Shown piece after piece: positions 45,124 through 63,076 of a stretch of DNA of 64,000 nucleotides (positions are counted from its first letter, which is position 1; each line of letters starts with the position of its first letter). Under the pieces are notes generated by a model. That model saw nothing but the letters and a program-made list of their open reading frames with translations, did not search any database and was not told the DNA's origin. The position numbers and the translations under genes are program-made. Origin of the DNA: Burkholderiales bacterium. Its GTDB lineage: Bacteria; Pseudomonadota; Gammaproteobacteria; Burkholderiales; Burkholderiaceae_C. Location of the stretch: NCBI GenBank assembly GCA_016191525.1, contig JACPOK010000011.1, forward strand, positions 124,001 to 188,000. The letters run 5' to 3'.

Positions 45124-45183
45124 ATCTTGGTTTTTTTGCCGCACCAGCCTTAAACATGCACCTGTCTGGGGAGGATTGTTTTC

Positions 45184-46053
45184 ATGAGCCTGTCTTTGGT
45201 GCAAAGCCGTGCCCTGCTGGCGCTGGACGCCGCCGCCGTCACTGTCGAGGTCCACTTGGCCAACGGCCTGCCCAGCTTCACCCTGGTGGGGCTGGCCGAC
45301 GTGGAAGTGAAGGAAGCGCGCGAGCGGGTGCGCTCGGCCATCCAGAACTCGGGGCTGGAATTCCCCAGCAACAAGCGCATCACCGTGAACCTGGCACCGG
45401 CCGACCTGCCCAAGGATTCGGGCCGCTTCGACCTGCCCATCGCGCTGGGCATCCTGGCTGCCAGCGGGCAGATCGACGCGGCGCGGCTGGCCGGCCACGA
45501 GTTCGCGGGCGAGCTGTCCTTGTCAGGCGAGTTGCGGCCGGTGCGCGGCGCACTGGCCATGAGCCTGGCGCTGCACAAAGGCGGCGTGGCCACGCGGCTG
45601 GTGCTGCCGCCCGGCAGTGCCGAGGAGGCCGCGCTGGTGCCCGATGCCCGTGTCTACCGCGCGGTGCACTTGCTGGATGTGGTGCGCCAGTTCCTGCCCG
45701 TGCCGCCCGATGAGCCGGGCGAGGGCTGGAGCTGCGTGGCCGCTGCGCCCGCCGCCGCACAGGCGCGGTATCCCGACCTGGCTGACGTGAAAGGCCAGTC
45801 CGGCGCCAAGCGGGCGCTGGAGATCGCGGCGGCCGGCGGCCACAGCCTGCTGATGGTGGGCCCGCCCGGCGCCGGCAAGTCGATGCTGGCCCACCGCTTC
45901 GCCGGTTTGCTGCCACCGATGACGGTGCAGGAAGCCCTGGAAAGCGCCGCCGTGGCCAGCCTGGGCGGGCGGTTCTCGCTAGAGCGCTGGGCCGTGCGGC
46001 CGACCTGCACGCCCCATCACTCGGCCAGCGCCGTGGCGCTGGTGGGCGGCGGC
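45184..46053 (+). pseudogene. comM: comM, interrupted after codon 290
   Basis: The first 290 codons of the YifB/ComM AAA+ helicase, which aids branch migration of incoming DNA in transformation. N-terminal Lon-like fold, then Walker A VGPPGAGKSML near 225-235 and TPHHSASAVALVGGG at 276-290. The family normally continues for about 200 more residues (sensor and C-terminal ATPase parts). Homology stops exactly at codon 290 and foreign sequence follows; the frame runs on by 33 codons to a TGA at 46153. The rest of comM presumably lies beyond the right window edge. Confidence 0.92.
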
Positions 46054-46060
46054 TGTGGAT

Positions 46061-46100
46061 TACACGAGTTAACTGAACTCCACACGAGTTTGCTGAACTG
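46061..46100. repeat. Two tandem 20-bp repeats at the element end (TnsB-site-like)
   Basis: TACACGAGTTAACTGAACTC and CACACGAGTTTGCTGAACTG, directly adjacent, 16 of 20 positions identical. Both contain ACA..AGTT...GAACT, the pattern also present in the 22-bp TnsB-binding repeats of Tn7 ends. They start 7 bp inside the TGTGG terminus. Confidence 0.65.
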
Positions 46101-46154
46101 GCAAAGTGATGGAACGCCAGTTGATCGCCTGGCGACAATGGAAAGGGGCGTGTG

Positions 46155-46685
46155 ATGTGGGTATTTGGATACGGGTCTCTCATGTATGACCGCTGGCAGT
46201 CGGAATTCCAGTGCCTCGAAGTCGCACAAGCAGATCTGCCGGACCACGCTCGCGTCTTCAACAAGAAGTCGAGTGTGAATTGGGGAACGAGAACCGCTCC
46301 GGGACCTACGCTGAACGTCATTCCACTTGAAGGACGCACTTGCACGGGAATCGCCTTTCGATTTGACGACTCGCACCGGGATGCCGTGCTTGCACGCCTG
46401 ATGGCCCGTGAGGGGAAAGGATTTGAGCTTCTCAACAAGAACGTGGTGCTTGCTGACGGAACTGCAGTCAGTGCCGTGGTTCCGCTGTACCTCGGGCGGA
46501 ATGTGTTCGATACCGCAAATCCCACAGAACTCGCGATGTTGGCTGTCAACGCAGCGGGAACGTCGGGGCGATGCCGCGACTACATCGACTCTGCCTATCA
46601 GCAACTCCAACTGCTGGGCATAGAGGATCCCGCGGTCTCCGCCGTGTGGAAAGCGTTGCAGAAGGCTATTGCTGAACAACGGTGA
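46155..46685 (+). CDS. ChaC-like gamma-glutamylcyclotransferase
   Basis: A 176-residue protein with the cyclotransferase start MWVFGYGSLMYDRW and the catalytic Glu86 in MAREGKGFE; the C-terminal GTSGRCRDYIDSAYQQLQLLG matches ChaC. It would cleave gamma-glutamyl compounds such as glutathione to 5-oxoproline. First gene inside the element; its ATG overlaps the stop of the broken comM frame. The preferred start is 46155. Confidence 0.82.
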   Translation: MWVFGYGSLMYDRWQSEFQCLEVAQADLPDHARVFNKKSSVNWGTRTAPGPTLNVIPLEGRTCTGIAFRFDDSHRDAVLARLMAREGKGFELLNKNVVLADGTAVSAVVPLYLGRNVFDTANPTELAMLAVNAAGTSGRCRDYIDSAYQQLQLLGIEDPAVSAVWKALQKAIAEQR

Positions 46686-46972
46686 GGCCCGGACCCGCGC
46701 CATTTATCAGAATTACGCCTTTATGCTTATCCGTCGTTTGCTTCGGTCTTGGCCACACCCTTTTATGACTGACCATGAGCTGCGGGTGGCCTTCAATGGG
46801 AGGGCGTCTGTGAACCAAGCTATGGTCTCCGCAAACTGTACTTTCATTACACAAGTATTTGTTTTTAAATAAGATTTCAAAAATTGCCCGTGCAGTAGGC
46901 GCACCGATATCTAGATAGAGTTATGAAGAGTCTTTAAATTGATTCACATGGTTCATTTAATGCAGGTGCGAA
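46686..46972. other. 287-bp AT-rich non-coding stretch
   Basis: Markedly AT-rich for this window (for example TTGTTTTTAAATAAGATTTC near 46857), with several short open frames on both strands that lack start signals or family resemblance. It probably holds the promoter of the following 52-aa peptide/winged-helix pair. I see no terminator or clear repeat in it. Confidence 0.5.
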
Positions 46973-47131
46973 ATGAAAAAGGAAACTCTTGATGTGCTGG
47001 ATTGGTTGGCGTCCCATGCGCCAGAACTGGCGCAGCTCTTGATAGCGCTCATCCCGGTGCTCGCGTTGCTGGTGGTGGGGTATGCGCTGCACGTCATCCT
47101 CAAGTTGAACGGTCCGGGGAAAAAGAAGTGA
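46973..47131 (+). CDS. 52-residue single-pass membrane peptide
   Basis: Starts MKKETLDVLDWLASHAPE, then a hydrophobic helix (about residues 20-44: LAQLLIALIPVLALLVVGYA) and a basic tail KLNGPGKKK. One membrane span with positive-inside charge. Its TGA overlaps the GTG of the next gene (GTGA), so the two are co-translated. Unknown family; possible roles are a membrane toxin-like peptide or an anchor for the winged-helix protein. Confidence 0.6.
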   Translation: MKKETLDVLDWLASHAPELAQLLIALIPVLALLVVGYALHVILKLNGPGKKK

Positions 47132-47823
47132 TTCGCGCCATGCCCTGGTGCAGCGCGCCATCCTTACCGGTCCGGGCCGCGCTGCCGGAACTGCGGTGGG
47201 AGCCGCAGGGCGATCTGCCGGCCGCGACGTCGGCGGCGGCACTGATGCTCTACGTTGCCCTGGTGTTCACCTCCAAGACGGAACTGGACCAAAACCAGGT
47301 CTCGCGCATGGTTGCGCAGGCTTCCTACGACGATCTGGAGTTGGCGACGGGTAGATCGCGGTCGATGGTGGCTGACGGCCTGAAACGTCTGCAAAACACC
47401 GGCTTGGTGACGCCGGAGGGTTCAGCCCAGCGCCGCAGCTATGTTCTGGCGGGCCCGCACGAGCAATGGTTCAAAGTGCCCTGCAGTGCCATCGTCAAAA
47501 ACGGGGTCATCCGGCCTTTCACCACTTTCAACCTGCGCTCCAAGCACGAGCTCCACGCCTTGAAGCTCTACCTGTACTTCGCAGCAGTTCGGCCCAACAA
47601 CCAGACTTTTTCGATGGCCGCATACGAGACGATCCACGACCGCACGGGCGTGCCTGAGCGCGATATCCGCCGAGCCTTGTCACTGCTGATCTCCAGTGGG
47701 TTGCTCGTCAACATTGACCGGGAGTTCAGTCGCACGTTGAAAGTCAACGAGGCCAACAAGTACTACCTCAATGGCAGTACAGATTTCTTCCCACGGCAGC
47801 GGCCTGTCGCTGCCGCCGCATAA
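47128..47823 (+). CDS. Protein with two winged-helix-like segments
   Basis: A 231-residue protein with two helix-turn-helix-like regions, about residues 67-93 (YDDLELATGRSRSMVADGLK) and 166-192 (YETIHDRTGVPERDIRRALS). The layout resembles plasmid replication initiators or double winged-helix regulators, but I recognise no specific family. GTG at 47128 is chosen for coupling to the 52-aa peptide; ATG at 47140 is the alternative. Confidence 0.6.
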   Translation: MIRAMPWCSAPSLPVRAALPELRWEPQGDLPAATSAAALMLYVALVFTSKTELDQNQVSRMVAQASYDDLELATGRSRSMVADGLKRLQNTGLVTPEGSAQRRSYVLAGPHEQWFKVPCSAIVKNGVIRPFTTFNLRSKHELHALKLYLYFAAVRPNNQTFSMAAYETIHDRTGVPERDIRRALSLLISSGLLVNIDREFSRTLKVNEANKYYLNGSTDFFPRQRPVAAAA

Positions 47824-47839
47824 CCAAGGAGCACAAGGC

Positions 47840-48067
47840 ATGAGCATCACCGTCAAGGTCTACCTGGTTGATGGCAGCTACAGCGAGTCGCCAGCGCAAG
47901 CGTCAATCCTTGAGGAACACGACGAACTCGTACGCCAGGGCTATGGCGGCAAGCAGCTGATCCACCGCCTGATCTCCGACGACTGGGGCCCGCCGCCACG
48001 AAGCGTGGTGCTCGACGGCGTCGCTGAAGACGGACAGCGCGTGGAGATCGCCATCCACTACGACTGA
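47840..48067 (+). CDS. 75-residue protein of unknown function
   Basis: A small soluble protein (MSITVKVYLVDGSYSESPAQ ... VEDGQ-like acidic end ... VEIAIHYD) predicted mainly beta with a central helix HDELVRQGYGGKQLIHRL. A ribosome site AAGGAG-like stretch precedes ATG 47840. It lies 8 bp before the HEPN-motif gene, an arrangement that suggests a small partner or antitoxin. No family recognised. Confidence 0.6.
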   Translation: MSITVKVYLVDGSYSESPAQASILEEHDELVRQGYGGKQLIHRLISDDWGPPPRSVVLDGVAEDGQRVEIAIHYD

Positions 48068-48075
48068 CGGTGTCC

Positions 48076-48927
48076 ATGAAGTTGGTCGGCATCTACGGTT
48101 ACGACATCACTCGTCCGGTGGCGTTGCCGCGCGGCCAAGTCATCTATCCGCGAACGGCCGAAGACAGAGAGTCGGACAGGTGGTCCGCAGACCCCAATGC
48201 CTACAACCTGACTGCCGTCGTCGCTGGACAGTCACTGGAGCGGCAGTTCCTCTACAACCTGGACGCCACTTTGGCGTTCGTGGAGCAGGCCGATATCTAC
48301 CTGGGCGATGTTGTCGATGGCGACACACCGCCACATTTTCAGCAGTTCCCCGATCGGCTTGAGATGCGACGCCGACTCACGGGGCGAGGCTGCGCGGTGA
48401 TTCAGGATTGGCTCGAGCCTGCGTCGCGGGGGGAATTCATCAGGCTGTGTCTCGCGCGGCTCGAAGACCAAGCCTGGTGCGAGCGCACGCAGTTCCATCT
48501 GCTCTTGCACAAGTCCATTGAGACCTTTCGCCAACGGGACAACTTCGTCGACATCGCTTACTTCCTCTTGTTCAGCGGTTTGGAGGGGTTTGCGCGAGGC
48601 GTGGCGCCTGCACCCGTCAAGAGCACCTCCCGCGTCATCGTTCAGCTGCTTCAGAGCTACGAATTTGACGTGCTGGAAGTTCATACCGACTTGCCGCGCT
48701 CGATTCGAACCTACGCACTTCTTCGCGATGCCCTGTTCCACAACGGGCGTCTGGAGACGACGTGGCAGCGCGATGGGGAAGTTATCCCTCTCACCATCAG
48801 CGCTTATCTCTACAACCTACGCGTATTGGTCAGGCTGGTGATTCTCAAGGCCGTGGGATTCGACGATGGCCGAATCAACTGGAACTGTTGGATCGACCGC
48901 ATGCCCTTCAAGGGGCCACATCGCTAA
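48076..48927 (+). CDS. HEPN-motif protein (possible RNase effector)
   Basis: A 283-residue protein whose C-terminal half is helical and contains LLRDALFHNGR: Arg217-x4-His222, the R-x4-6-H signature of HEPN ribonucleases. Upstream helices (FHLLLHKSIETFRQRDNFVDIAYFLLFSGLEGF, in part) fit a HEPN bundle. The N-terminal 120 residues are unrelated to anything I recognise. In-frame GTG at 48070 is an alternative start. Tail to tail with the SIR2 gene, 3 bp apart. Confidence 0.6.
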   Translation: MKLVGIYGYDITRPVALPRGQVIYPRTAEDRESDRWSADPNAYNLTAVVAGQSLERQFLYNLDATLAFVEQADIYLGDVVDGDTPPHFQQFPDRLEMRRRLTGRGCAVIQDWLEPASRGEFIRLCLARLEDQAWCERTQFHLLLHKSIETFRQRDNFVDIAYFLLFSGLEGFARGVAPAPVKSTSRVIVQLLQSYEFDVLEVHTDLPRSIRTYALLRDALFHNGRLETTWQRDGEVIPLTISAYLYNLRVLVRLVILKAVGFDDGRINWNCWIDRMPFKGPHR

Positions 48928-48930
48928 CTG

Positions 48931-50682
48931 CTACCACCCCCAGCCCAGGCGGCCCACGAACTCCTCCAGGCTTGCGACATTCTTGGCCGCCAGGTGAGGC
49001 GCCTTGGCCACCAGGCCGGTTGTGACAAATGCCGATCCCGCGCCTTCCTTCTCCAGGCTGATCTTGATCTCATCGGCAATTCGCTGGAAGTTGCCTTTGC
49101 GCCAGCCGAACGAGCCAGGGAGCGTCCAGTAGCGGCCATCGAGCTCCACTATGGGGGCCGCGTACGCCAGCGACGTCAGGACCTCGAACCAGTCGAACGT
49201 CAGCTGGAATGCATCTTCCGACTCGAAACTGCGCGAGAACATGGGCGTCATCACTTCTGTCAGCCGATCCTGCAAGGGCGTGTGATGGTTTTGCAGCTCG
49301 GGGATGAGCTTGATCAGGTCCATATTGCGGTCCATCATGGCCCAGGCCGGGAAGGCATCTACTCCGCGCAGGTCTGCCTGGCCATCGCGAACCAGATGCG
49401 CGTTGAACAGGTGTTGCAGGGTCTGCCAGCGGCGCCGAGACGCGGCCCCAACGCCGAAGGCGTACCAAAGCAGCGAGGCGGGATAGCGCTGCAAAGCAAG
49501 CCAGGCCGTCCGACCGTTGGAGCCGCGCAGCGTCGCGAGCTTCCTGAGGGCCCGGCACCACTCCTCTACTTGCTCGCCCTCGGCCCACTGGCCGGCGACG
49601 AACGCCATATGCATGACTGTCGTCATGGCCGACTCGGCCGTCCGTAGCCGTTTGAGGAGGCCATCGGCGTCAACCTGCGAGGCCACGTCCGCCAGCACCG
49701 ATTTGGCCAAGGTGTCGGCAGTCCGCCCCACTTCGGCCGAAATCAGGTCCGTGAGCGAAATGCGGTACTTCGGTTCTGAAAGGTAGCGCTTGAGCGTCGC
49801 CACTGCGGCCTCGGTGGACAGCGGGTGCGGCCGGTCGAATTCCTCCAGGGATTGAACCTTCGACAGCAGATCGGTGAAGAAGTTATCCGCATCTGCGACC
49901 TTGACAGGGATGGCACCGCGATGGGCAATCAGCTTGAGCGCCTTGTCCGCGGGATCGCCCCGGCTGGTCCAGTAGGTAGAAAAGCGCCGTGTTGGAGCGC
50001 GCGTGATGGCGGCACGCAGGGCTTCGTCCCATTCCGCGGACCAGCCCGCCACGATCAACCCGAACTCGTCGAAAACCCGGTCCAGCAGCTTGTTTATGGC
50101 CTCCGGGTACGCGGCCAGCTCTTCCGGCGTATTGCGGATTCGGGTGTCCAGGTAGTCGCCGTGGATCTTGATCACGGCACACGCCGTGTGGACCAGCGGC
50201 AGCGCGCCCTCGATGTGATCAGGCGAGCTGAGCACAACCGGCTGGATTCCCACATCATGCAGCGCCGTCTCTTGGAGCCGGTCGAAGTTGGTCATCAGGA
50301 TCACGCGGATGTAGCCGCGTTTGACCAATTCGGCGATCGCCCGATGGGTTGCCGTGGGCGTCTTGGCACCTTCTTCGCGCTCCTGCTCGGTGGGCTCCCA
50401 GTAGCTTCGAAGCAGCTGTTGGCGCTCCGCGGGGGTTTTGGCGACTGCATCGAGCAATTCCGAGTAGTCAGGCTCCTTGCCCATCCGGGTACGGTACCAG
50501 GCGGCCGGATCAGGCTCGCAATCAGCCTTGGCGAGCGCAGCCACCTTACGCACGAGCTCAATGGTGATTTCCCAGCCGGTGGGGATTCGCGCGGGCCGGG
50601 ACACCCCAGAGCCGAGCATCACGGCGAATACGCCCTTGTTGGCGTGCATCGAGAAAGCCAGCGAGCTGATCGGATCAATCAT
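48931..50682 (-). CDS. SIR2-domain protein, probable NAD-consuming defence effector
   Basis: A 583-residue protein. The N-terminal SIR2 fold (about 10-270) has the nucleotide site LGSGVSRPARIPTGWE (23-38), TNFD (131-134) and the catalytic His174 in KIHGDYLD, all intact. The C-terminal 300 residues are helical and unassigned. Proteins with N-terminal SIR2 and a large unknown sensor region are common in anti-phage islands, where SIR2 depletes NAD+. ATG at 50682 begins at MIDPISSLAFSMHANKG; a longer frame upstream is Arg-rich and rejected. Confidence 0.78.
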   Translation of the reverse strand: MIDPISSLAFSMHANKGVFAVMLGSGVSRPARIPTGWEITIELVRKVAALAKADCEPDPAAWYRTRMGKEPDYSELLDAVAKTPAERQQLLRSYWEPTEQEREEGAKTPTATHRAIAELVKRGYIRVILMTNFDRLQETALHDVGIQPVVLSSPDHIEGALPLVHTACAVIKIHGDYLDTRIRNTPEELAAYPEAINKLLDRVFDEFGLIVAGWSAEWDEALRAAITRAPTRRFSTYWTSRGDPADKALKLIAHRGAIPVKVADADNFFTDLLSKVQSLEEFDRPHPLSTEAAVATLKRYLSEPKYRISLTDLISAEVGRTADTLAKSVLADVASQVDADGLLKRLRTAESAMTTVMHMAFVAGQWAEGEQVEEWCRALRKLATLRGSNGRTAWLALQRYPASLLWYAFGVGAASRRRWQTLQHLFNAHLVRDGQADLRGVDAFPAWAMMDRNMDLIKLIPELQNHHTPLQDRLTEVMTPMFSRSFESEDAFQLTFDWFEVLTSLAYAAPIVELDGRYWTLPGSFGWRKGNFQRIADEIKISLEKEGAGSAFVTTGLVAKAPHLAAKNVASLEEFVGRLGWGW

Positions 50683-50941
50683 GGCAAGTATCCAGAGCCG
50701 TAATCCGTTGATTTTCCTCGACCCGGCACGGCGCAATCCGGCGATGTCGTACGCGGGCGTGCGCACGGCGCCCATCCGGCGTAAACTTGCGCCAGGCGTC
50801 CGCCTGAGCTTCGAGCGGCTCATAAAAGACAAGCTGCTACTGCAGCGAATGAATTTTCGGATTTTTTTCCTTCCCATGCGTGTTCGCATTGCGCAGGACG
50901 GTTAAGCGCTCGAACGTCCTGTGTCTATTCAGGAGCACCGC

Positions 50942-52093
50942 ATGCGTGTTGACGTTTCCGCTATTTCTTTTGCGATTCGCAGCCAGACGGCAGCAACGCC
51001 TCATCCCATCAAACTGAGCCATGCGCAGCAATGCGTCGCCGCAGCTTTGGGCCACAACAGTCTTGCGTCACTGCAGGCGTCGCAAGATGCCGGCGCCGCG
51101 CTGGACCTGGACAGTCATGTCGTGCTGGACCCAGCCCTGCTCGAGGCAAGGGCTGGCGCACTGGGCGTCAGCATGCCGGTCGGCGAGTTGCTCGCCCTTG
51201 TCACTGCCAGCCTCAGGCATCAACTGCACGGAATCGACATTCACGCATCGCTTGACGAATGCGAAGACGCCATCCGCAACGCCATGAACAACCGGGCGTT
51301 GAACGACGAGCAGGTTGCTGGGGAGCTAGCGACCGTCAACAGCGATGGGCTAGACGAGGTCTATCTGCCCGTCGACATCCCTTGGGATCAAGTACCGTCC
51401 GACGGCAAGCCACTGGAGATCGCCGTCGAGGGCCACATCAGCATGAACATCGACGACGAGCGCCCCTACTGGGGCCACAAAGTTGATGTGAGCGCAATGC
51501 TCGAGGTAAGCCACCCGGCCACGGCCGTTTGGCAAGCGACGTTGCACATCAGCAGCGCTCGACTGAATCGGCCGGGAGACGATGACGATCGCGACGAACC
51601 TGCGCTGATTTCATTGGAGCAGGCATTGGTCGAAGAACTCGACGTGAGTTGGGAAGAAGCCGACTTGCTCGTCGATGCCCCCATGCATGAAACCGCTAGC
51701 GAGGATGGGTTGGTATACAGCTACATCTTTGATTTCAGTCGTCTGGATTTGCCCGCTCGCCTTCAACGCAAGATCACGAAGAAAGCTGGTTCTCTGCAGT
51801 TCGAGGTCCAGCCCTCGTTTCGTGAGCGACTCCACGGCTCGCAAACCTCGCAACAGCGTCACTACGTTCACGGTGATCAACACGAGATCGAGCCATTGAA
51901 GTTTTTCTGTTTGAACTGCGACGCGTTTTTTGAAGTTTCGCATGTCGCGCTGGCCCATCCTGCCGATCAAGGCGCCGCATACGCCGAGAGTCTGAGGCGA
52001 TGGAACAGACGGCCCGGCCGCAGCAAACTGAACTTCCGGCGGCCCGCCAGTCCGCGCAATGCATTTGCACCTCAGAACACAGGCACCAAGTAA
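50942..52093 (+). CDS. Unknown 383-residue protein with a C-terminal C2H2-like site
   Basis: N-terminal helix pair IKLSHAQQCVAAALGHNSLASLQAS resembles a short module at the start of several unrelated mobile-element proteins. The middle is acidic and beta-rich. Near the end C-L-N-C (323-326) with His334 and His339 (CLNCDAFFEVSHVALAH) could bind zinc. RBS AGGAG lies 8 bp before ATG 50942. Stands alone between two minus-strand genes. No function assigned. Confidence 0.55.
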   Translation: MRVDVSAISFAIRSQTAATPHPIKLSHAQQCVAAALGHNSLASLQASQDAGAALDLDSHVVLDPALLEARAGALGVSMPVGELLALVTASLRHQLHGIDIHASLDECEDAIRNAMNNRALNDEQVAGELATVNSDGLDEVYLPVDIPWDQVPSDGKPLEIAVEGHISMNIDDERPYWGHKVDVSAMLEVSHPATAVWQATLHISSARLNRPGDDDDRDEPALISLEQALVEELDVSWEEADLLVDAPMHETASEDGLVYSYIFDFSRLDLPARLQRKITKKAGSLQFEVQPSFRERLHGSQTSQQRHYVHGDQHEIEPLKFFCLNCDAFFEVSHVALAHPADQGAAYAESLRRWNRRPGRSKLNFRRPASPRNAFAPQNTGTK

Positions 52094-52176
52094 CCGCCGC
52101 GTACTAGGCGTGCGTCCCTCTTCTGGTTTTCCAGACACTTCAATCTTGCCTAGAGGTCTGCAGCCGCGTCGGAAAG

Positions 52177-53673
52177 TTAGTCGCCCACCTCCGGTCCGAA
52201 CGCCAATGCCAGACGCTGCCGGGATGCACGACGGGCCTGCATCAAAAGGCCTGTCGCGCCCGCGCTCTCCAAGGGCGAACCCATGAAATAGTCGAACAGG
52301 ATGGCGGACGTGCCCGGATTCTTGTTGCGCGCGACGGCCGTTTCGAGTAACTGCGCGAGGTCGATCTGGCCCTTCTTCACCGCGTTGGAAAGCCGCTCAA
52401 AGGTGATGATCGACATAGTGAAGATATTCTCCAACGGCAGATTTCGCCGCGATTCGTCGTCGGGAAAGTCAAGCTGCTGGCCTGGGTAGAGCCGCACCAG
52501 TTGATCGCCACTGCCCAGGCCCAACTCCCGGCTGGTTACGACGATCAGGTAGTCCTGATCGGCAGCAGCGCACTGCGGCAGCGGACTGTCGGCTCCCCGT
52601 ATGTCGCTCCCCACCTTCCAACCCTGTTTGAAGGCCTCGCGTACACGCTTGGTCTTGTTGAAAGTCTGTATTTCGTTGTCCGTGAGAAGTACGTCATCGC
52701 CAAAGAGCGCCATCTTGGCTTCGACCATAACGTTGCAGTGTCCGAACGGAATTACGGCTTCAACCTTAGTTGCATTCACGCCGGCAATGGCTTCGTATTC
52801 GGTTTCGGTCACGCAGTTTGGCGACATGGCTTGCGCCAGTTCCATCACGTAGTCTTCAAACAGCCTGCTGAAAGGCCTTGTGTACTTCTCACCGAGACGG
52901 GCCAGCCGCAGATGAACGATCTCCTCCAGGCCGCGGGCGACCACCATGCGCTGCCAAGGCGCGAAATCGCCGCCCCGTGTCTTGAAGAATGGGTACCGCT
53001 TCAAGTGCGGAAACTCGTAGAGTTCCTGGCGCACTGAAGGCTGCTCAACTCGCTCGTCGACCCGCAGCGCGCGGCGCAAAGCCGGCAGGTCCAGTGCAAT
53101 GAGATTCCAGAAGACGTCGATGCTCGCCCCATAGGCGGGGCGCAGGGGCCCGAAGAAGTCCCGTGGAACCACTTGGCGCCCGTCGAGCAGCGCCGCGACC
53201 ACACTGAAGGCCAGGTCCATAAAGTGCTCCGGGGACAAGCCCAACTCTTGCACAAACTGACGGCGCGATGCATTGTTCGCGTCCGTTCTGGCCACCAGCG
53301 CCGGCCACCGCAGAAATCCCCAGCCTTGCGGCCGCTGGAAGTCGAACTGCGGGAAGTGCGACCGCATCATCAGGTAGATCGGCGGCTTCTTGGCCAGGTA
53401 GTCCTTGCCGATCAGCTCCTGTACCCCGCCGCGCAGCCGCTCGAATTCTTCGTCAGTGATCCGCCGGCCGATGCGAATGCGCGTTTGCTCGTCGCGCAGA
53501 GCCCATTTCACGATCAGCAGGATGTTCCACGGCAGGACGGCCATCTCCGTCGGCAGATCAACATTTTCCTTCCAAAGCAGACGCAACGCGGCATCTGCGA
53601 TGGATGCTGCGCTGTAGCGCCGGATTTCCTGAAAAATGAGGCGTTGCAGTTCGGAAGGGTTGAGGTTGCTCAC
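52177..53673 (-). CDS. Large protein with a PD-(D/E)XK nuclease motif
   Basis: A 498-residue protein. The segment FEDYVMELAQAM (Glu274), then VEAVIPFGHCNVMVEAK with Glu305 and E318-A-K320, reads as the E...D/E-x(n)-E-x-K core of PD-(D/E)XK nucleases. The N-terminal 250 residues are helical and unassigned. Such single-gene nucleases are frequent in defence islands, often acting as stand-alone abortive or restriction-like effectors. Upstream lies a cupin gene on the same strand. Confidence 0.6.
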   Translation of the reverse strand: MSNLNPSELQRLIFQEIRRYSAASIADAALRLLWKENVDLPTEMAVLPWNILLIVKWALRDEQTRIRIGRRITDEEFERLRGGVQELIGKDYLAKKPPIYLMMRSHFPQFDFQRPQGWGFLRWPALVARTDANNASRRQFVQELGLSPEHFMDLAFSVVAALLDGRQVVPRDFFGPLRPAYGASIDVFWNLIALDLPALRRALRVDERVEQPSVRQELYEFPHLKRYPFFKTRGGDFAPWQRMVVARGLEEIVHLRLARLGEKYTRPFSRLFEDYVMELAQAMSPNCVTETEYEAIAGVNATKVEAVIPFGHCNVMVEAKMALFGDDVLLTDNEIQTFNKTKRVREAFKQGWKVGSDIRGADSPLPQCAAADQDYLIVVTSRELGLGSGDQLVRLYPGQQLDFPDDESRRNLPLENIFTMSIITFERLSNAVKKGQIDLAQLLETAVARNKNPGTSAILFDYFMGSPLESAGATGLLMQARRASRQRLALAFGPEVGD

Positions 53674-53727
53674 CGCTCAATGCTACGGCGGAGCGCGCTG
53701 CGCCCCGCGCAATCGTGAGCCGCTACG

Positions 53728-54153
53728 TCAATCCGGAAGTTGCGAAACCCAGCGCAATGTCAGGATCGTCGCGGGCTGAATTCCAAACGAGCGGTGGAAA
53801 ATGCCTTTGCCCCAGATGACGAAATCGCCAGTGTCGCGCAGCACATGGACGCTTGTTTCTTTCGACTCGAAGGTGTCCGCGCAGGAAAACTCGATCCTGA
53901 ATTCGCTGGGCGGCCCGACCAGGATGCAGATGCTTCGGCCTTCGCTGACCGGCTTGACCTCTCCGTTGGGGTGCCCGGCCGGATGGTTGAACCACTTCAC
54001 GTGCGGTCCGGCCGACAAGACATCTCCATGCACGTGACGCAGGTCCGCAGAGCCCGACTTGCACCAGTCGCTGAAACCGATGAACCAGCCCGTGCCTTGC
54101 GTGTCTGTGGCGCTGGCATTACCGAACTCGATGTCTTTTGGTTTGGAATGCAT
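53728..54153 (-). CDS. Cupin-like small protein
   Basis: A 141-residue beta-rich protein: GTGWFIGFSDW, VKWFNHPAGHPNGEVKP and SICILVGPPSEFRIEF, then RDTGDFVIWGKGIFH. This is the pattern of a small cupin family sometimes mislabelled signal peptidase I; there is no peptidase motif. Metal-binding His/Glu residues are partly present. Precedes the PD-(D/E)XK gene by 54 bp on the same strand. Confidence 0.6.
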   Translation of the reverse strand: MHSKPKDIEFGNASATDTQGTGWFIGFSDWCKSGSADLRHVHGDVLSAGPHVKWFNHPAGHPNGEVKPVSEGRSICILVGPPSEFRIEFSCADTFESKETSVHVLRDTGDFVIWGKGIFHRSFGIQPATILTLRWVSQLPD

Positions 54154-54225
54154 GGCGAGAGCCTATCGGATTGCACCCTGTGCCCACCCAATTTGGCACG
54201 AGGGCAGCCGCGAACAAGCGTTAGC

Positions 54226-54268
54226 GCGAATTAGTCAAAACGGTAATTATCTGGTTTGACTAATTCGC
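54226..54268. repeat. 14-bp perfect inverted repeat with 15-bp spacer
   Basis: GCGAATTAGTCAAA at 54226-54239 and TTTGACTAATTCGC at 54255-54268. A 14-bp perfect match by chance is very unlikely. It lies in the AT-rich 199-bp divergent spacer between the cupin gene and the 596-aa gene. Could be an operator, a recombinase core site or a palindromic element end; no T-run follows, so not a terminator. Confidence 0.8.
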
Positions 54269-54319
54269 ACCAAATCTCTCTCGCTGCCGGCACCTGCAGG
54301 GGCGACGCGGCTCTCCCGA

Positions 54320-54341
54320 CAGTAAACTCTTAGTTTTACTG
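54320..54341. promoter_or_regulatory. Small inverted repeat close to the 596-aa gene start
   Basis: CAGTAAA, 8-bp spacer, TTTACTG, ending 11 bp before the GTG start at 54353. It is a candidate operator that may work with the larger palindrome upstream. No clear -35/-10 pair is visible. Confidence 0.4.
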
Positions 54342-54352
54342 AACCGCACTGG

Positions 54353-56143
54353 GTGGTGCATCGGCTTGCTCCACCGCCCGCGACACCCAAGGACCTGGCG
54401 CCTTTGTCTCAACCGAATTTCGAACGATTCCCCCTTGATGGTGCCCTGTACCGCCTCGTATGGATCGGAAAGGTAGCCGCTCCGTCAATTTCCATGACCA
54501 CTGCGCGGGTGAGGTTGTGGCTCGCCAAGATCGACGAGTCTGATCCGCAAGATCTGAAGTGGGCATTCCGGCCGAGTGGTTTGCACAGCGTGCTGGTGAT
54601 CGAGGAGGCGGCCGGCTCGGTGCCGACTCTGGCGACGGGCTCGTTCTGGCGAGACCGCACGCTTCAGCGCGACTATTCGATGTACGACGATCTGACCTTT
54701 CAGAGTGAACCCGTTGATGACCAACCCTGGAATGTCGTGCGCGCAAGTGATCGCCTCACCTCTGGCAGATTCCGCGTTTCTGTTGACGAATACCCTGTGA
54801 GTGGTGAAGACGCTCGTGGCAGCGAGCTCCGCTTTCACGATGCGCCGCTGCTCCAGTGCTACACCGACCGAGGGCTCGAACTGCTCATCCCCTGCTATGA
54901 GATCTTCCGGCGCTTCTATGCGCTGACTTCTGACTTGGCCAACGCGCTGCTTGCGGGTCACTGGAAGCGGGAACTCGCAACGCTCGTTGACATCGAGCTC
55001 ACCCGAGTGTCAGAAGACGGCAAGTCATTCGAAGTCGCGCCCCTTGTGGCCATGCGCGACATTGGTTGTTTGGGCATCGCTCTGTTCCTCACAATGCCGG
55101 TCGCCGGCAGGCGCGCCTCGGAGATTTTCCCGGCGATTGAAAATCTGCGCCGGCGGGGAATTCGTGACCCCTGGATATTCGCGCGCCCGCCCTGGCAACA
55201 ACCAATGGCCCTGACTTTCATCGGTCAGCGGCTTCGCAGCGGTGCAGTGCTGGTCAAGTGGATCTACGACTCACCGTTTCCCTCAATTCCATACCCGGTC
55301 GTTCGAATGGATCCCAGCGTCAACATCCCTGTTGAAAGCGAGAGCGAGCCGGTGCGACCCCCCGGTGTGCCAATGGCCGACCGGATAGCAGAACTGTCTG
55401 ACGCCACCATCCAACCTGCCGCGGATGCGCGGGTTTCGCGAGCAGCCGTCCACTTCGGCTTAGGAGACTTCTGGACCAAGCTCGTCAAGGTCAAGCATCG
55501 CGCGCGCAAGAAGATCTACGTCCCCTTTAACCCTGTCACAGAGGGTGACTCGCCTCCGCCGCGCAAACGTCGACTTACGACTGGACGGCGATCGGAAACA
55601 GGACGCGCCCCGACTGCATCCTGGAGCAGCGACTCGCAAAACGTCATCATGAACCGCTTCAACGCCTTGGCGGAGTGCTTTGAGGAATTGCTGCAGGCCG
55701 GCGAGATTCGTGCACGCGAAGACTATGCGCCTTGCAACCCAGTGCAGATTGGTCTGCATCTCTACTGTGCTTTTCCGATGGCAATTGGTGGTGTGGCAAG
55801 GCCCTGGACCATCGTGAACCCGGAGGAGCCTCGTCCGCGTCTTTGCTGGGTCAGCGAGATCACCGCGTCGGATGGCTCGCTCTACTACTGGTTTGAAGTT
55901 GAGGCGCTATCGCGCGAAGCATTCAAAGCCTTGGTCGTGAAGCCCAGGACGCCCGGCGCCCGTTTGACTTCAGACACTCTCGAAGTCATCCTGAAAATCG
56001 GCGCCACAAGCAAGGGGCAGTGGAAAAGAGGAGCTCTGCTCACCGTCGAAGAGCACGTCAAATGGCTCTCGGCACGCCACTCGTTTTCTTCCGGTCGACT
56101 GCGCAGCAGTGTCGTTCTTGGTAAATTGAGATCACTTCGCTAG
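54353..56143 (+). CDS. Large unknown protein, possibly TnsE-like
   Basis: A 596-residue protein. The layout recalls TnsE, the Tn7 targeting factor: an N-terminal beta-rich region, IPCYEIFRRFYALTS near 179-193 followed by an ARPPWQQPMALTFIGQRL block near 277-294, a charged Pro/Arg-rich linker (about 320-430) and a C-terminal domain beginning NRFNALAECFEELLQ near 434. The C-terminus ASDGSLYYWFEVEALS parallels the TnsE end. This is by memory of family pattern only, not an alignment. GTG at 54353 (or 54356) is used. Not adjacent to other tns genes. Confidence 0.4.
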   Translation: MVHRLAPPPATPKDLAPLSQPNFERFPLDGALYRLVWIGKVAAPSISMTTARVRLWLAKIDESDPQDLKWAFRPSGLHSVLVIEEAAGSVPTLATGSFWRDRTLQRDYSMYDDLTFQSEPVDDQPWNVVRASDRLTSGRFRVSVDEYPVSGEDARGSELRFHDAPLLQCYTDRGLELLIPCYEIFRRFYALTSDLANALLAGHWKRELATLVDIELTRVSEDGKSFEVAPLVAMRDIGCLGIALFLTMPVAGRRASEIFPAIENLRRRGIRDPWIFARPPWQQPMALTFIGQRLRSGAVLVKWIYDSPFPSIPYPVVRMDPSVNIPVESESEPVRPPGVPMADRIAELSDATIQPAADARVSRAAVHFGLGDFWTKLVKVKHRARKKIYVPFNPVTEGDSPPPRKRRLTTGRRSETGRAPTASWSSDSQNVIMNRFNALAECFEELLQAGEIRAREDYAPCNPVQIGLHLYCAFPMAIGGVARPWTIVNPEEPRPRLCWVSEITASDGSLYYWFEVEALSREAFKALVVKPRTPGARLTSDTLEVILKIGATSKGQWKRGALLTVEEHVKWLSARHSFSSGRLRSSVVLGKLRSLR

Positions 56144-56195
56144 ACGTCTGGCATCCAGCGCTAGCAAGGGAGCCACATGCTTGAGTCAACATCTT

Positions 56196-56513
56196 CTAGG
56201 GTGAAGGCGGATCACGGTAAAGACGGAGAAACTTGAACATCTTCGGCCATTCGTCTCGAGGCTTGAAGACGATGGCCACTTCCTGGCCACCCAGAGCAGA
56301 TTCGGTAAGCACGAGGTGATCTGGCACCTCTTTGGCATTGGCAAATTCCTTGGCATTGGCCTTGCAGACCGCTTTGTAGAACGGGCCAGGCAGCCATTGC
56401 GCCACCTCAGGCTCGTCCTTGAACTGGAGGTAGCCAGCGAGTGACGCATGAGCTACCGACACCATTGCAAATCCAAGTGGAATGTCGTCGCGAACCAAGA
56501 TGTACATCTTCAT
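56196..56513 (-). CDS. PTH2-like small conserved protein
   Basis: A 105-residue protein, MKMYILVRDDIPLGFAMVS then AHASLAGYLQFKDEP, with the peptidyl-tRNA-hydrolase-2-like fold pattern found in a family of small conserved proteins of unknown role. C-terminal VLTESALGGQEVAIVFKPR is well conserved in that family. RBS GGGAGG precedes ATG 56513 by 9 bp. Confidence 0.6.
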   Translation of the reverse strand: MKMYILVRDDIPLGFAMVSVAHASLAGYLQFKDEPEVAQWLPGPFYKAVCKANAKEFANAKEVPDHLVLTESALGGQEVAIVFKPRDEWPKMFKFLRLYRDPPSP

Positions 56514-57250
56514 TTCCGAGCCTCCCGGCCGGCGCCACAGCAATCAACGTTCGGCAGTGCTTGCCTCCACAGCGTCTTGATTAGTGATTCGCAGGCCATC
56601 GAATACAAGGATAGGCTGTTTTTGACGCGGAAATTAACGGCCGTCACGTCTCGGGAACGTTAGCTATTTTGGCCATATTAGCTGTGCAGCTAACACTCCC
56701 TGTCCCGTGTCGCCCCCTAGCTGTACAGGCCGGTTGAATACCAGATGGCACGATAGAAACCTGAACCCGCCTCAATGCCTTGGTAGCGGGCAAGAGACTT
56801 AGGCGGTCCACACTGCGATCACTACCCACACGTCAAGCGTGCGGTAGGCGAGCCAGGCAATGCAGATGGCGAGCACCAACCGTACACATGCGCAGAACGT
56901 GTGGATCCGTCTGAGCCGCTTCAGGTGCTCGCTGGCTAGAGCCTCGCGCTCCTCCCACGCCTGGCCGAACTCGATCAACTCTGCGCGCGGCCGCGTCCCA
57001 GCTGGAAGCGGCACTCCCGTTCTTCGGTAGAACGCCGCGATGCCGTCTTCTTCGGCTTCCTGAGAGGGTTCAGCGTCCGACCCACGGAGGATCCCGGACC
57101 GCGGCTGCTGACGTGCAGGGTGGACGGAACCGAATGTGACAGTCTCTCCCGTTCATCATGCGATTGAACATTTCGCAATTGAATCCGGCGCTGGCGGTAG
57201 ACAGGCCTGCTCTGTCTTGCTAACCTTCGTTTCCAAAGGAGAGGGAGGAA
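56514..57250. other. 737-bp stretch with no confident gene
   Basis: Contains one low-confidence minus-strand frame (56799-57014) and, at 56678-56693, the perfect palindrome TTAGCTGTGCAGCTAA preceded by another TTAGCT at 56660. Toward 57240 a strong GGAGAGGGAGGAA ribosome site leads into the next gene. Long antisense frames here have no support and are treated as chance. Confidence 0.5.
56799..57014 (-). CDS. Possible small membrane protein
   Basis: A 71-residue GTG-start frame. The N-terminal half is charged (EFGQAWEEREALASEHLKRL) and the C-terminal half hydrophobic (LVLAICIAWLAYRTLDVWVVI), so a single-span or hairpin membrane protein is possible. No family or strong ribosome site supports it; it may be a chance frame. 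Confidence 0.25.
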   Translation of the reverse strand: MPLPAGTRPRAELIEFGQAWEEREALASEHLKRLRRIHTFCACVRLVLAICIAWLAYRTLDVWVVIAVWTA

Positions 57251-57403
57251 ATGATGATCAAGACCCGTGTCTTGGCGGCCGCAATGGCTTGCCTGCCAGC
57301 ATTTGCACTGGCTCAATCGGTTCGCGTCTTTGACTACATCCACATCACCGACAGTCTTGATGATGCGGTCAACTTCATCGTTGCCCACCCGCCTGTGGCA
57401 TGA
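57251..57403 (+). CDS. 50-residue secreted peptide
   Basis: MMIKTRVLAAAMACLPAFAL is a clear Sec signal peptide, with cleavage likely after ALA at 19-21, leaving about 29 residues (QSVRVFDYIHITDSLDD and onward, ending HPPVA). A strong GAGGGAGGAA site lies before ATG 57251. Its TGA overlaps the ATG of the next gene (ATGA), so the peptide belongs to one translated unit with the two downstream genes. No family recognised. Confidence 0.6.
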   Translation: MMIKTRVLAAAMACLPAFALAQSVRVFDYIHITDSLDDAVNFIVAHPPVA

Positions 57404-57852
57404 GCACCGAAGACGAGGACATTGAGGGCTCGCTTGCGGAGATTCTCGCGTTCTGCCGACAGCGTAAGCTGCAGCGAAACAAGGAAGCCTTCGACCGCAT
57501 CGCCGACATAATTTCCGCTCAAGGCGACGAACGGCTTGAAGGTGATGCACGAAAGCGAAGCCTTGATCAGAAGTACGACGCGGCCATTTCAATGCTGCTC
57601 ATGGTCATAGATCCTCCCGGGCGGGACGTCTTTGACTCCGCATTGGAGAAGATTCGCAAGGCCACCGGTTCAGACGTGACGCAGGTACGGATTCTGGACG
57701 ATTCACCAATGGGCTATCTCCTTGGGGAGGCCCTCGGCGCTCCGAGGGCTCTTGGCGAGGGACACGACACCGTCGGACATTTCCGCCAGAGGCTTGCAAA
57801 ACGCAAATGGTCGGCTGGGAGGCAACCGCCGCAGGAGGGTAGTCGTGGCTAA
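57400..57852 (+). CDS. 150-residue unknown protein
   Basis: A mainly helical, charged cytoplasmic protein (STEDEDIEGSLAEILAFCRQ; RKRSLDQKYDAAISMLLMVI) with a Gly-rich middle (SPMGYLLGEALGAPRALGEG) and a basic tail. It has no signal or recognised domain. Coupled at both ends: ATGA with the secreted peptide and an 8-bp overlap with the next gene. Confidence 0.6.
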   Translation: MSTEDEDIEGSLAEILAFCRQRKLQRNKEAFDRIADIISAQGDERLEGDARKRSLDQKYDAAISMLLMVIDPPGRDVFDSALEKIRKATGSDVTQVRILDDSPMGYLLGEALGAPRALGEGHDTVGHFRQRLAKRKWSAGRQPPQEGSRG

Positions 57853-58558
57853 AGCGTCGAAACCAAACAAGAATGCTGCGGCCAGTACCTACAAGAACCA
57901 GACGGTCGCAACGCTTCTTGCGCTTGCCCACGGCGCACCGGCCACAATGAGTTTTGAAGAGAACAAATCGACAGCTCGGCTGTTCGAAATTGTTGTCCTC
58001 GCCGACCTGCTGACCACCTACACCTCGGCACCCACCAATGGCACCGCCCAAGTGCACAACGCCACTGGCGGAGAACTGAAGTTCGCCGGCTCGCCTTGCT
58101 CCGCAGACAAAGACAAGTACTCGTGGTTCGGGCTTCGGGATGCTCCTGGTGCGGTTGAAAATGAGGCCTGGGTGTCGGTGCAGTTCACGACCTTAAGCTA
58201 CGCACTTGAGGCAACGGGAGCCGCGCCCGCAGGCGCAGACAAGCACGAGATCGATATTGGGATCTTCTCTCCGCTCGCGAAGGGGACCGACTATCCCTCG
58301 TACCAGAAGCTGATGGCTGGGGTGAGTTGCAAGCACTTTGCGCCGAGCAAGGAATGTGTTCGGGAGGCGCTCGGCTTGAGGCGAGAGTCTGCCGTTCTTC
58401 AAGGATTGGCTCCGTCGCTCGTCCCATGGCTTGTAGAGTGGGTTCCCGCTGCTCCGGCGTCACCGATGTACCTGGCATCCTCAAGCCCATCGGTCCACAA
58501 CTACAGCTCGCCGGTGGAAGCGCTTGGTCTCTATACGGCCAGCGTACCTTTCAAGTGA
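57845..58558 (+). CDS. Possible restriction-like nuclease of unknown family
   Basis: A 237-residue protein. FEIVVLADLL (Glu48), HEIDIGIF (Asp137) and VSCKHF (Ser161-Cys-Lys163), then CVREALGLRRE, are placed like a PD-(D/E)XK nuclease core in which the catalytic Glu is replaced by Ser; similar CK...GLRRE segments occur in some restriction endonucleases. GTG 57845 overlaps the previous stop. Its last codons (LGLYTASVPFK) recur in degenerate form at 58718-58753. Confidence 0.5.
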   Translation: MAKASKPNKNAAASTYKNQTVATLLALAHGAPATMSFEENKSTARLFEIVVLADLLTTYTSAPTNGTAQVHNATGGELKFAGSPCSADKDKYSWFGLRDAPGAVENEAWVSVQFTTLSYALEATGAAPAGADKHEIDIGIFSPLAKGTDYPSYQKLMAGVSCKHFAPSKECVREALGLRRESAVLQGLAPSLVPWLVEWVPAAPASPMYLASSSPSVHNYSSPVEALGLYTASVPFK

Positions 58559-58717
58559 GCATGGACTCCGAGGCCCCCCAGCCTACCGGACAGCAAGCAG
58601 GCAACCGTAATGTTTCGAAGTTGAGCCATTAAGAGCACGAACGCCTGTAGTGTGCTGATATCTGGACACTACGGCGACTGCCACACCGTAAACAGGGGCA
58701 GCGATCCCATCCACACG

Positions 58718-58753
58718 CTCGGCGTCTGCACGGCCAGTACACCGTTCAAATAG
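58718..58753 (+). pseudogene. Remnant of a second copy of the preceding gene's 3' end
   Basis: The codons read LGVCTASTPFK-stop, against LGLYTASVPFK-stop at the end of the nuclease-like gene (58523-58558): 8 of 11 residues match and both end in a stop. No longer frame lies before it, so it looks like the leftover 3' end of a duplicated or recombined relative. Its last bases overlap the opposite-strand nuclease gene. Confidence 0.5.
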
Positions 58754-60824
58754 GACTGCTCGACATTTGGGCTGGCCCCATGTCGGCGTCTGGAGACTCT
58801 TGCGCACCACCTTCGGAACGCGCCGGGATGAAGTCATTCAGCCCAGCGATCGGCTTTCGGACGAAGTTAACGGCGAAAACCCACCAGTCGGGATAGAGCG
58901 GAAATCCGCGTTCATCCAGCGACAGCGAATCGAGCACCATCTTGTACTGGTTGGGCATCTCGAGTTGGGCGAGCAGATCCTGCGGCGTTGGCTTGTCAGT
59001 CGCCCAGAGTCGCATGCCAATGCTGTACTCCTCGATCTTGCCTTGCTCCATGGAGCGAAGCTTGATTTCGCCGTTCTCAAAGAACCTTGCGAATGCAGAA
59101 TAGTCGTAGAGGTAAATGCCCTGCTGCTTTCCTGGCGCGCAAAACGGGAAGCAATTGAGAATCATCGGAACGACGGTCTTGTTCTGCGCATCCGCCGGCA
59201 GATGCTCCGCCAGGATGTCGGGATGCTGCGCCAAACCGTCGATCAAGCGGCGGACCTGCGCGAGGTTCTCTTGCGTCTCCTGGTCGAAGTACCGCATTCG
59301 AAACGGATCGCCGAAGGGCAACGACCTGTTCTTGCACTCGATCATGAAAAGGTAGTCGCCCCACGGCACTACGGCATCGAACTCGTACTCGTTATCCCCA
59401 CGCTTGGCCTTGAACGCATAGGACTTGATGCCAGCCTCCTTCCAGACATCATGAACCCTCTCCTCAAAAGCTTTGCCCTTGCGTTGGAATTGGATGCCCA
59501 AGTGGCTAAGCGTGGACAGGATCACAATCGGCACACTGGAAGCGTGCAGGGCCAGCGGCAGCAGTCGGTATTCGCCAGTCCCAAGTCGTATGAAGGGGTG
59601 ATCGAACAGGTCTCGGCTGGTGCGGCAGAACGTCAGGCGCGAGAGCAGCACTTCGGACACAGCGGCGGCCAGACCGAACTTTGCGAAATAGTCTTGCCAA
59701 CCGGTCTTGGTACGAACCAGTTCGCTCTTGCTCGTCGATTGCTCCAGCAATTTGAGGGCGCTGTAGCCTCGGACCCACTCGACCAGTCGGAGTCCCCCCG
59801 GTCGTTCGGTATCGGTCGTGATGTCATAGGCCAGGTACTGCTCCAGGCCAGAGATGCCGTGGACTTCGTCATTGGACACCCAACCTCTGGGCGGCATCGG
59901 CAAGAGAGCCGGCTTCGCCTTGGGATTCTTCGGCTTGATGTTTTCCTTGGTTCGGATCTCCAGCCCATATTGAGTCATCTTGTCGGTCAGGCGCTCGATC
60001 GCCACGCGATGGGCCCAATCAGACGAGGCGCTCCCTTGTTCGACAACGACGTGCGTTACCTCTTCTGACAGCTTGCGGTCGAATCCAGCCGCATCGACAA
60101 CGCGCAGCCTTCGCCCGAGCAGCCTGGCCCGCTCCTCAGTCGACTTCCACCGTCGCCATAGGACGGCCAGAACCATGGTCGAGTCGGCCGCGCCGATCGC
60201 CTCTTCGGTGGCTTCGGGAAGCTTCGGGACCACGATATGCCCCTCCGCTCCGTACCACTTGTTGCGGTGCGCCTCCATCTGCAGCGTCATCGAGACGAAC
60301 AGCACCAGGTTTTCTGTCACACCGTCCATGTCCAAGTGATTGCCGTCTTGGTCCAGAAAGTGAGCATGCGTTGCGATCTCGCGTTCATCCGCTTTGTGCT
60401 TGCGGAATTCGTCCCGCCACAGGATCAGCGCCTGTTGCGCGCTAGCGATAGCGGCGGCGATATGCAGCGTCGGTTCCAGCTTTGATCCGGGCGTCCGCCC
60501 GAGTTCGGCGACCAACTTCCGATAGCCTGCTTCGCCCACTCGGAGCGTGCCAATAGCATCCTTCACCGCGGAAGGTGCCTGGCCGCCGTTCGCTCCCGCA
60601 GCCAGGTACTGCTCAAGCGTCTCCAACAACTCGTCTCGGCGTTTTTCGGCAGCCTTGTTCGGGTACGGGATGATCAATGTGCCAGCCCGGCGCAATGCAC
60701 CGGCGATCGCCTCCGGGTTGTCCTGCCCCCCACCAGCGTTGTCCAGCAATGACTTGGCCGCCGGCCAGTCGCTGGTCTCGAAAGCGGCTCGCAGGGCTTC
60801 AACGGAGAGTTCAACAGGCTGCAT
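58746..60824 (-). CDS. Large protein with a C-terminal PD-(D/E)XK nuclease domain
   Basis: A 692-residue protein. The nuclease core at about 450-500 shows FEERVHDVW (Glu454), EYEFDAVVPWGDY (Asp483) and FMIECKNRS (Glu496-Cys-Lys498), complete. The N-terminal 440 residues are helical with no recognised domain and may be a sensor or partner-binding part. ATG at 60824 is used; the longer frame has 17 unlikely residues. Faces the peptide-unknown-nuclease operon, tail to tail. Confidence 0.7.
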   Translation of the reverse strand: MQPVELSVEALRAAFETSDWPAAKSLLDNAGGGQDNPEAIAGALRRAGTLIIPYPNKAAEKRRDELLETLEQYLAAGANGGQAPSAVKDAIGTLRVGEAGYRKLVAELGRTPGSKLEPTLHIAAAIASAQQALILWRDEFRKHKADEREIATHAHFLDQDGNHLDMDGVTENLVLFVSMTLQMEAHRNKWYGAEGHIVVPKLPEATEEAIGAADSTMVLAVLWRRWKSTEERARLLGRRLRVVDAAGFDRKLSEEVTHVVVEQGSASSDWAHRVAIERLTDKMTQYGLEIRTKENIKPKNPKAKPALLPMPPRGWVSNDEVHGISGLEQYLAYDITTDTERPGGLRLVEWVRGYSALKLLEQSTSKSELVRTKTGWQDYFAKFGLAAAVSEVLLSRLTFCRTSRDLFDHPFIRLGTGEYRLLPLALHASSVPIVILSTLSHLGIQFQRKGKAFEERVHDVWKEAGIKSYAFKAKRGDNEYEFDAVVPWGDYLFMIECKNRSLPFGDPFRMRYFDQETQENLAQVRRLIDGLAQHPDILAEHLPADAQNKTVVPMILNCFPFCAPGKQQGIYLYDYSAFARFFENGEIKLRSMEQGKIEEYSIGMRLWATDKPTPQDLLAQLEMPNQYKMVLDSLSLDERGFPLYPDWWVFAVNFVRKPIAGLNDFIPARSEGGAQESPDADMGPAQMSSSPI

Positions 60825-60921
60825 GCGAGAAAGCTGGTTTGAGGATTCCGGGCTTCGGTGTGCCGCGCAGAGCAATCCTCAACGGAATGATCGGCCGCGG
60901 CTGGATTCGTGCACTTAAAAC

Positions 60922-60947
60922 GAAAGCCGGCACTGTGGCCGGCTTTC
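60922..60947 (-). terminator. Terminator-like hairpin
   Basis: GAAAGCCGGC, short loop, GCCGGCTTTC, followed on the minus strand by CGTTTTAAG. The stem is perfect over ten pairs. In this direction it would end transcripts of the small minus-strand frame at 60976-61212; the T-run is weak. Confidence 0.5.
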
Positions 60948-60975
60948 CTGAATTGGCGGGGGCGTCAGCTCCTGT

Positions 60976-61212: not shown

Positions 61213-61254
61213 TTTAGCGCGCCTGAAGGACAAGTCGTAAGAGGCTCGCCAGTC

Positions 61255-61881: not shown

Positions 61882-62035
61882 GCGCCGTCAGGCTTGATCA
61901 CAGTCGGCGACTCGCGACTTCTAACTTTCAAAATTAGAACTAGAGTAGACAGCAAAGGGCTTGGCCGCATAGACTGGGGGCAGTTTCCAGACACGCCCTC
62001 CGCTATGTGCAGGCTGTCTCAGGAGGAGGAAAAAC

Positions 62036-63013: not shown

Positions 63014-63076
63014 TGTTGGAACTCGTGCCGTCGCACGGCGAACGATATGCCCTCACCAGGCGGGCGGGGTTCCGGC

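Follow-up and report, generated by a model that had tools for sequence, protein, structure and literature searches.

The window analysed here, a 64,000-nucleotide stretch from a Burkholderiales bacterium (bases 124001-188000 of the 203,262-base contig C21, in a genome of 40 contigs and 5.0 Mb), contains the 5' half of comM joined to what is very probably the left end of a Tn7-like transposon carrying a homolog of the target selector TnsF (TniE). The comM half (45184..46053, + strand) covers codons 1-290; Pfam finds a nearly whole ChlI domain (E 1e-41) and only positions 1-95 of the 207 of Mg_chelatase. The gene stays in frame through codon 290 at 46053, and the element end begins at 46054 (GGC|TGTGGATTACACG), with G+C content falling from 0.70 to 0.54 between the neighbouring kilobases. 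A chimeric open frame results (45184..46155, +), in which 290 comM codons are followed by 33 foreign codons from the element end before a stop at 46155. The junction is flanked by the left copy of a 5-bp target-site duplication, GCGGC (46049..46053, +), and by the left terminal inverted repeat TGTGGATT (46054..46061, +), followed by two tandem 20-bp end repeats, ACACGAGTTAACTGAACTCC and ACACGAGTTTGCTGAACTGG (46062..46101, +). The right end of the element has a match of 14 of 20 positions at the same offset; the two repeats are likely TnsB binding sites. No Rfam family reached its gathering score in positions 44000-64000 of the window.

The remainder of comM lies on another contig. The sole match in the genome to Mg_chelatase_C, the C-terminal domain of ComM, is not on C21 but on C15, where TTATTAGAATCCACA (ending in AGAATCCACA) is followed by GCGGC and then by TCACCGCCGCGGCCG, the start of the comM 3' half. 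The 3' half thus directly follows the right element end, whose terminal repeat ...AATCCACA (C15:40416-40423) pairs with the left one and whose duplication copy (C15:40424-40428, or L003:425-429) is identical to the left copy at five of five bases. Scripted excision of the element together with one GCGGC restores an uninterrupted ComM of 508 codons that reads VGGGSPPRPGEISL across the site. The placement of the two halves on different contigs would suit a more mundane account, in which comM was broken by an ordinary frameshift, a deletion or an assembly error and the downstream DNA is unrelated. The matching duplication, the inverted terminal repeats and the Tns genes at the far end make this very unlikely, as does the same junction structure with both comM halves on a single contig in three other genomes of the family (G235, G154 and G305).

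These observations bear out the original prediction, made from the window alone, which had placed the end of a Tn7-like element after codon 290, lower-GC foreign DNA from 46054 onward and the left boundary of a mobile island at 46053/46054: paired ends, duplication and Tns genes at the right end all agree with it. The C-terminal half that it had expected beside a second GCGGC is there, on C15, rather than nowhere. The match of GCGGC was given as four of five positions because it was scored against a supposed AbaR duplication, ACCGC, rather than against the element's own right flank, and the differing base is the wobble position of glycine codon 290. The string ACCGC itself did not turn up in the two AbaR papers searched; its reverse complement, GCGGT, is the duplication of the G235 element.

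A Tn7-like element is expected to generate a 5-bp target-site duplication and to have inverted ends starting TGT. Both are present here (GCGGC on both sides; TGTGGATT/AATCCACA), and so is the corresponding gene set at one end. Pfam and homology searches (tblastn and blastp against Acinetobacter and Acidovorax sets) identify, adjoining the comM 3' half, the TnsA endonuclease, the TnsB DDE transposase, the TnsC/TniB ATPase, TniQ and a 538-residue TniE/TnsF homolog. TniQ is short (311 residues), and the start of TnsF overlaps its end by 4 bases, as in an operon. TnsF has N-terminal zinc fingers, with 12 CxxC pairs, and an Xer-like C terminus. Elements of other kinds occur in comM of the same genus, near codons 225, 311 and 354, and the island might have been one of these, either a tyrosine-recombinase element of the Tsy type or a serine-recombinase island. 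Gene content refutes that account: TnsA, TnsB, TnsC and TniQ at the end, a 5-bp duplication and TGT...ACA termini at codon 290 leave it extremely improbable.

Relatives of this arrangement have been described in Acinetobacter. TniE/TnsF is reported as the comM target selector of Tn6022, and AjTn6022 needs TnsF for insertion into comM (Faure et al. 2023, PMC10293859). Like the present element, AjTn6022 has TnsA, TnsB, TnsC, a short TniQ and TnsF, inserts into comM and makes a target-site duplication; the TnsF of AjTn6022 is described as having zinc fingers at its N terminus and a tyrosine-recombinase fold that is inactivated, and was compared with XerH (5jk0) (PMC10293859). The present host is likely betaproteobacterial and not Acinetobacter, TnsB and TnsF are 32% and 27% identical to the Acinetobacter proteins, and the island, likely of about 73.5 kb, carries defence and catabolic cargo. 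The AbaR/AbGRI1 islands of A. baumannii share a Tn7-related backbone that interrupts comM, a TniE homolog and a large cargo, and comM inactivation was measured there (PMC7253598, PMC7508600). An AbaR resistance island was considered as the identity of the element and rejected: the host lineage is another one, proteins are 21-32% identical, and no drug-resistance family exceeds its Pfam cut-off among the open reading frames (ORFs) scanned, an APH-family match at L004:2099-3067 falling below it (22.0 of 23.2 bits). Nearer in sequence is a plasmid of Acidovorax carolinensis (NZ_CP021360), with the same gene order and identities of 57% for TnsA, 50% for TnsB, 56% for TnsC, 35% for TniQ and 44% for TnsF. 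The TnsF elements of that species (NZ_CP021360, NZ_CP021363) are on plasmids, with no comM half in the stretches read (L012, L013). Two stretches of plasmid p5741_1 (L010, L028) have TnsA/TnsB copies without annotated TniQ or TniE, and pAB3 (L119) has TniQ/TniE. The present element is a TnsF-type Tn7 relative in comM, new as an element and of a kind already known.

Insertion at this codon is not confined to the present genome. Among 300 genomes of the family, comM is split between codons 289 and 296 in 11; Tns genes lie beside the 3' half in 9 of these, and TnsF also in 7. The seven TnsF-bearing elements (the present one and those of six other genomes) are inserted at the same nucleotide, after codon 290, and their duplications (GCGGC, GCGGT, GCGGG, GTGGC, GTGGC, GAGGC and GTGGC) each copy the final five bases of codons 289-290 as they stand in that host. 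A search of contigs with a TnsF alignment gave six loci, five of them with the full Tns set and the comM 3' half beside TnsA and the sixth with TnsF only; L029 is the same contig as in G166. In a TnsB tree the same-site elements spread over several deep branches (the pAB3 row was left out as too short, and G308 and G070 form long branches that join). One nucleotide, host-specific duplications and several deep TnsB branches thus point to repeated targeted insertion, and repeated, independent, base-exact insertion at codon 290 is the simplest reading of these sequences. The junction does not recur without an insertion in many genomes: of 59 genomes sampled from the genus, among them the present one, 37 have comM in one near full-length piece through the insertion position, one of these with an internal stop. 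In one genome of the family (L096, G234:C27:22000-30500), an extra comM 3' fragment follows a Tn7-type end (ATTCACA|GCGGC) beside an intact comM; the 8.5 kb examined there gave no sign of Tns genes.

Arrival without TnsF guidance has also to be considered: targeting may have been relaxed or a matter of chance, or homologous recombination may have brought in a comM allele that was occupied beforehand. Transfer of an occupied allele is possible in principle, and the present genome is the only one of the 59 genus genomes to carry this TnsF. Seven elements from several deep TnsB branches at one nucleotide, with duplications that follow the host bases, argue the other way, as does the published requirement of AjTn6022 for TnsF in comM insertion, and we regard such an arrival as unlikely. 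Read from the assembled DNA, both junctions, the duplication, the terminal repeats, the TnsA-TnsB-TnsC-TniQ-TnsF set and the use of the same nucleotide in relatives are all in place. The locus is thus very probably occupied by a TnsF (TniE)-carrying Tn7-like transposon inserted after comM codon 290, likely under TnsF guidance; by analogy with Tn6022, TnsF is the predicted selector of comM as target in the present element.

Several observations weigh against this interpretation or limit it. The two island halves lie on different contigs. The last 141 bases of C21 are identical to the start of C15, from which we infer that the island part of C21 and C15:1-40423 form one island of 73,491 bases; the join goes no further than inference because the overlap sits inside a glutaryl-CoA-dehydrogenase-like frame (named from its sequence) of which there is a second, chromosomal copy. 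That copy joins C36 and C39 (C36 ends in 141 bases of identical sequence, and C39 begins with 236 bases that are 99% identical), so an assembly break is to be expected at this gene. Among the same-site relatives, the G154 element lacks the first T of the left end; G308 has TnsABC and TniQ, no TnsF match in the 8.6 kb read, and different ends; and G070 (L079, G070:C34:17000-21200) retains a 2.5-kb remnant with only TnsA and part of TnsB, which is a decayed insertion. In G260 and G149 no Tns genes were found in the stretches examined, and in G149 comM breaks after about codon 295, some five codons later. For TnsF itself, identity to Acinetobacter TniE is 27% over 388 residues. The last 60 residues contain no tyrosine, yet a tyrosine is present in that stretch in 16 of the 22 homologs of alignment A1, so the loss of the catalytic site rests more on the published description than on the tyrosine count. 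The structure model reaches a predicted template modelling score (pTM) of 0.41 and gave no Foldseek match in the PDB at E 0.001 or below; a match to XerH came from VIA structure comparison, with the N-terminal 300 residues hardly covered. TnsE, reported for Tn6022 on the opposite strand, had no Pfam match among the ORFs scanned, which do not include every ORF.

Walker B, sensor 1 and the C-terminal domain are all absent from what remains of comM at the 5' side, and no second comM was found in the genome, the other two ChlI-domain matches being an 829-residue frame and a 481-residue frame taken for RadA. For these reasons loss of ComM function is strongly predicted from sequence. ComEC and DprA families are present, so that transformation may otherwise be possible. 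On the model of the tested AjTn6022, TnsF would recognise the conserved stretch of comM that codes for Walker B and lies 42-60 bp downstream of the insertion; acting by way of TniQ and TnsC, it would direct cut-and-paste of the element by TnsA and TnsB. Inactivation of ComM, the natural-transformation helicase, would then lower recombination of divergent DNA, and this in turn may protect the island from replacement by an empty comM allele. When AbaR was removed from A. baumannii and comM repaired, transformability rose (PMC7508600); AbaR and other elements inactivate comM in 22% of strains of that species (PMC11472951). The idea that an element benefits from comM inactivation, its removal being thereby limited, is in the literature; by analogy, comM loss may limit removal of the present island as well.

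The part of the island within the window (46054..64000, unstranded) is marked by the GC shift and continues for 15,262 bases to the end of C21. The first cargo gene inside the left end (46152..46685, +) encodes a ChaC-like protein (PF04752, E 6.6e-19), which we take to belong to the gamma-glutamylcyclotransferase family. A candidate phage-defence gene follows at 48931..50889 (-), encoding a SIR2-domain protein (PF13289; PADLOC PDC-S65, E 1.3e-209), and a UDP-glucose/GDP-mannose dehydrogenase N-domain protein is encoded at 62036..63013 (+), upstream of a glycosyltransferase beyond the window. Further cargo comprises a KAP NTPase matching PifA, a Schlafen AlbA_2 protein and an N6-methylase-like protein; there are also glycosyltransferase and nucleotide-sugar genes and a block of catabolic genes for TctC, ABC transport and dehydrogenases. 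Next to the transposition genes, PRTase-CE, ORC-CDC6-like and CARF6-like genes lie consecutively (L002:8296-12136), possibly forming a nucleotide-signal defence system. The island has its own open acyl-CoA/glutaryl-CoA dehydrogenase-like gene (L005:1-1170, together with the end of L004), which agrees with the chromosomal copy at 99% over 236 bases.

Within this genus and family, other fixed positions in comM are occupied by elements of different chemistry. Near codon 354, at the NPC motif, a large serine recombinase adjoins the comM 5' half in five of six genomes (G040, G043, G137, G107 and G199; loci L066:8754-10238, L068:9109-10593, L107, L109 and L112); it has 494 residues in G040, with relatives 70-88% identical, and the inserts measure about 34-61 kb in the four genomes with both halves on one contig. 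The sixth, G080, is a contig-edge case that could not be typed. At codon 311 (Walker B), proteins of the type found in G034 adjoin the comM 3' half in five of eight genomes (G034, G262, G158, G083 and G347; loci L071:835-5451, L098, L100, L104 and L105), and all five right junctions read CACCTAAT. The G034 trio consists of consecutively encoded proteins of 387 residues (Phage_integrase above cut-off), 561 residues (no Pfam match) and 637 residues (Phage_integrase just below cut-off), of which the first is a tyrosine recombinase and the other two are likely relatives. The Tsy transposon is likewise reported in comM near Walker B, moved by tyrosine recombinases without Tn7 components (Faure et al. 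2023); the 637-residue protein has no N-terminal CxxC series in its sequence, and the codon-311 element may or may not be related to Tsy. Proteins of the G034 type are missing from G271 and from G044, which has a different, weak integrase match, and G270 lies at contig edges. After codon 225 (Walker A), G028 carries an 8.7-kb insert (L069, G028:C2:819300-829900) with a different, 564-residue serine recombinase beside the 3' half. The comM of G347 is apparently interrupted twice (G347:C30:255005-338219), near codon 66 and at codon 311. Left out of site typing were G005 (only a 3' piece, starting at codon 218), G056 (divergent comM on a short contig) and G022 (contig end). Our literature search returned work on Tn6022 and Tsy as elements that target comM, and on various elements found in the comM of A. 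baumannii; by title it returned no paper on serine recombinases in comM, subscription papers being mostly outside it.

Frequency was compared with RadA, a single control gene represented by the 481-residue frame that we named as such. ComM matched in at least two pieces in 29 of 300 genomes; 28 of these (all but G000) were re-queried, as were seven with one weak match, which added G149. Setting aside five with one open frame (G121, G302, G173, G148 and G316) and G234, with its extra 3' piece and intact copy, left 24 splits, 12 on one contig and 12 across contigs. Contig-edge pieces in G080, G091 and G270 overlap by 141, 156 and 54 bases and may be plain assembly breaks; 21 splits remain without them, and G206 is also weak (1.9 kb, overlapping pieces). 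RadA was in at least two pieces in 16 of 300, all re-queried. Of these, 10 were excluded because their pieces lie in one open frame and 4 because a full copy is accompanied by another copy or piece; the two that remain are G190 (45 kb, with a further near-full copy alongside) and G179 (at a contig edge). Weak single-piece genomes were re-examined for ComM only. ComM had no match in 8 of the 300 (at E 1e-40) and RadA in 2. In this sample, which spans relatives so that cases are not fully independent, comM is split more often than RadA: 24 versus 2 genomes with contig-edge cases (Fisher p 7e-6), 21 versus 1 without them (8e-6), and 12 versus 1 on one contig (0.003; 11 versus 1 without G206, 0.006).

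Since serine- or tyrosine-recombinase elements occupy its other sites, comM has the look of a landing pad shared by elements of unrelated kinds. There is about an even chance that at least three unrelated chemistries (TnsF Tn7-type DDE, large serine and tyrosine recombinases) have independently settled on fixed points at the most conserved AAA+ motif codons (Walker A after 225, VGGG after 290, Walker B near 311 and NPCPCG near 354), repeatedly disabling one and the same step of natural transformation and so shielding themselves from removal by recombination. The pattern could reflect selection against transformation, or only the fact that DNA so highly conserved makes a good target. In Acinetobacter, TnsF is known to guide insertion into comM; with the present element such insertion probably extends to another bacterial lineage, in which the cargo consists of defence and catabolic genes instead of resistance genes. 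The six additional elements bring to seven the natural insertions at this nucleotide, and their differing target bases and deeply diverged transposases offer a means to map the requirements of TnsF and of the transposase. To judge by the survey (21 of 300 against 1 of 300), unrelated elements are drawn to comM far more frequently than to RadA, and the idea that mobile DNA selects against transformation-based curing may now be tested across the whole family.
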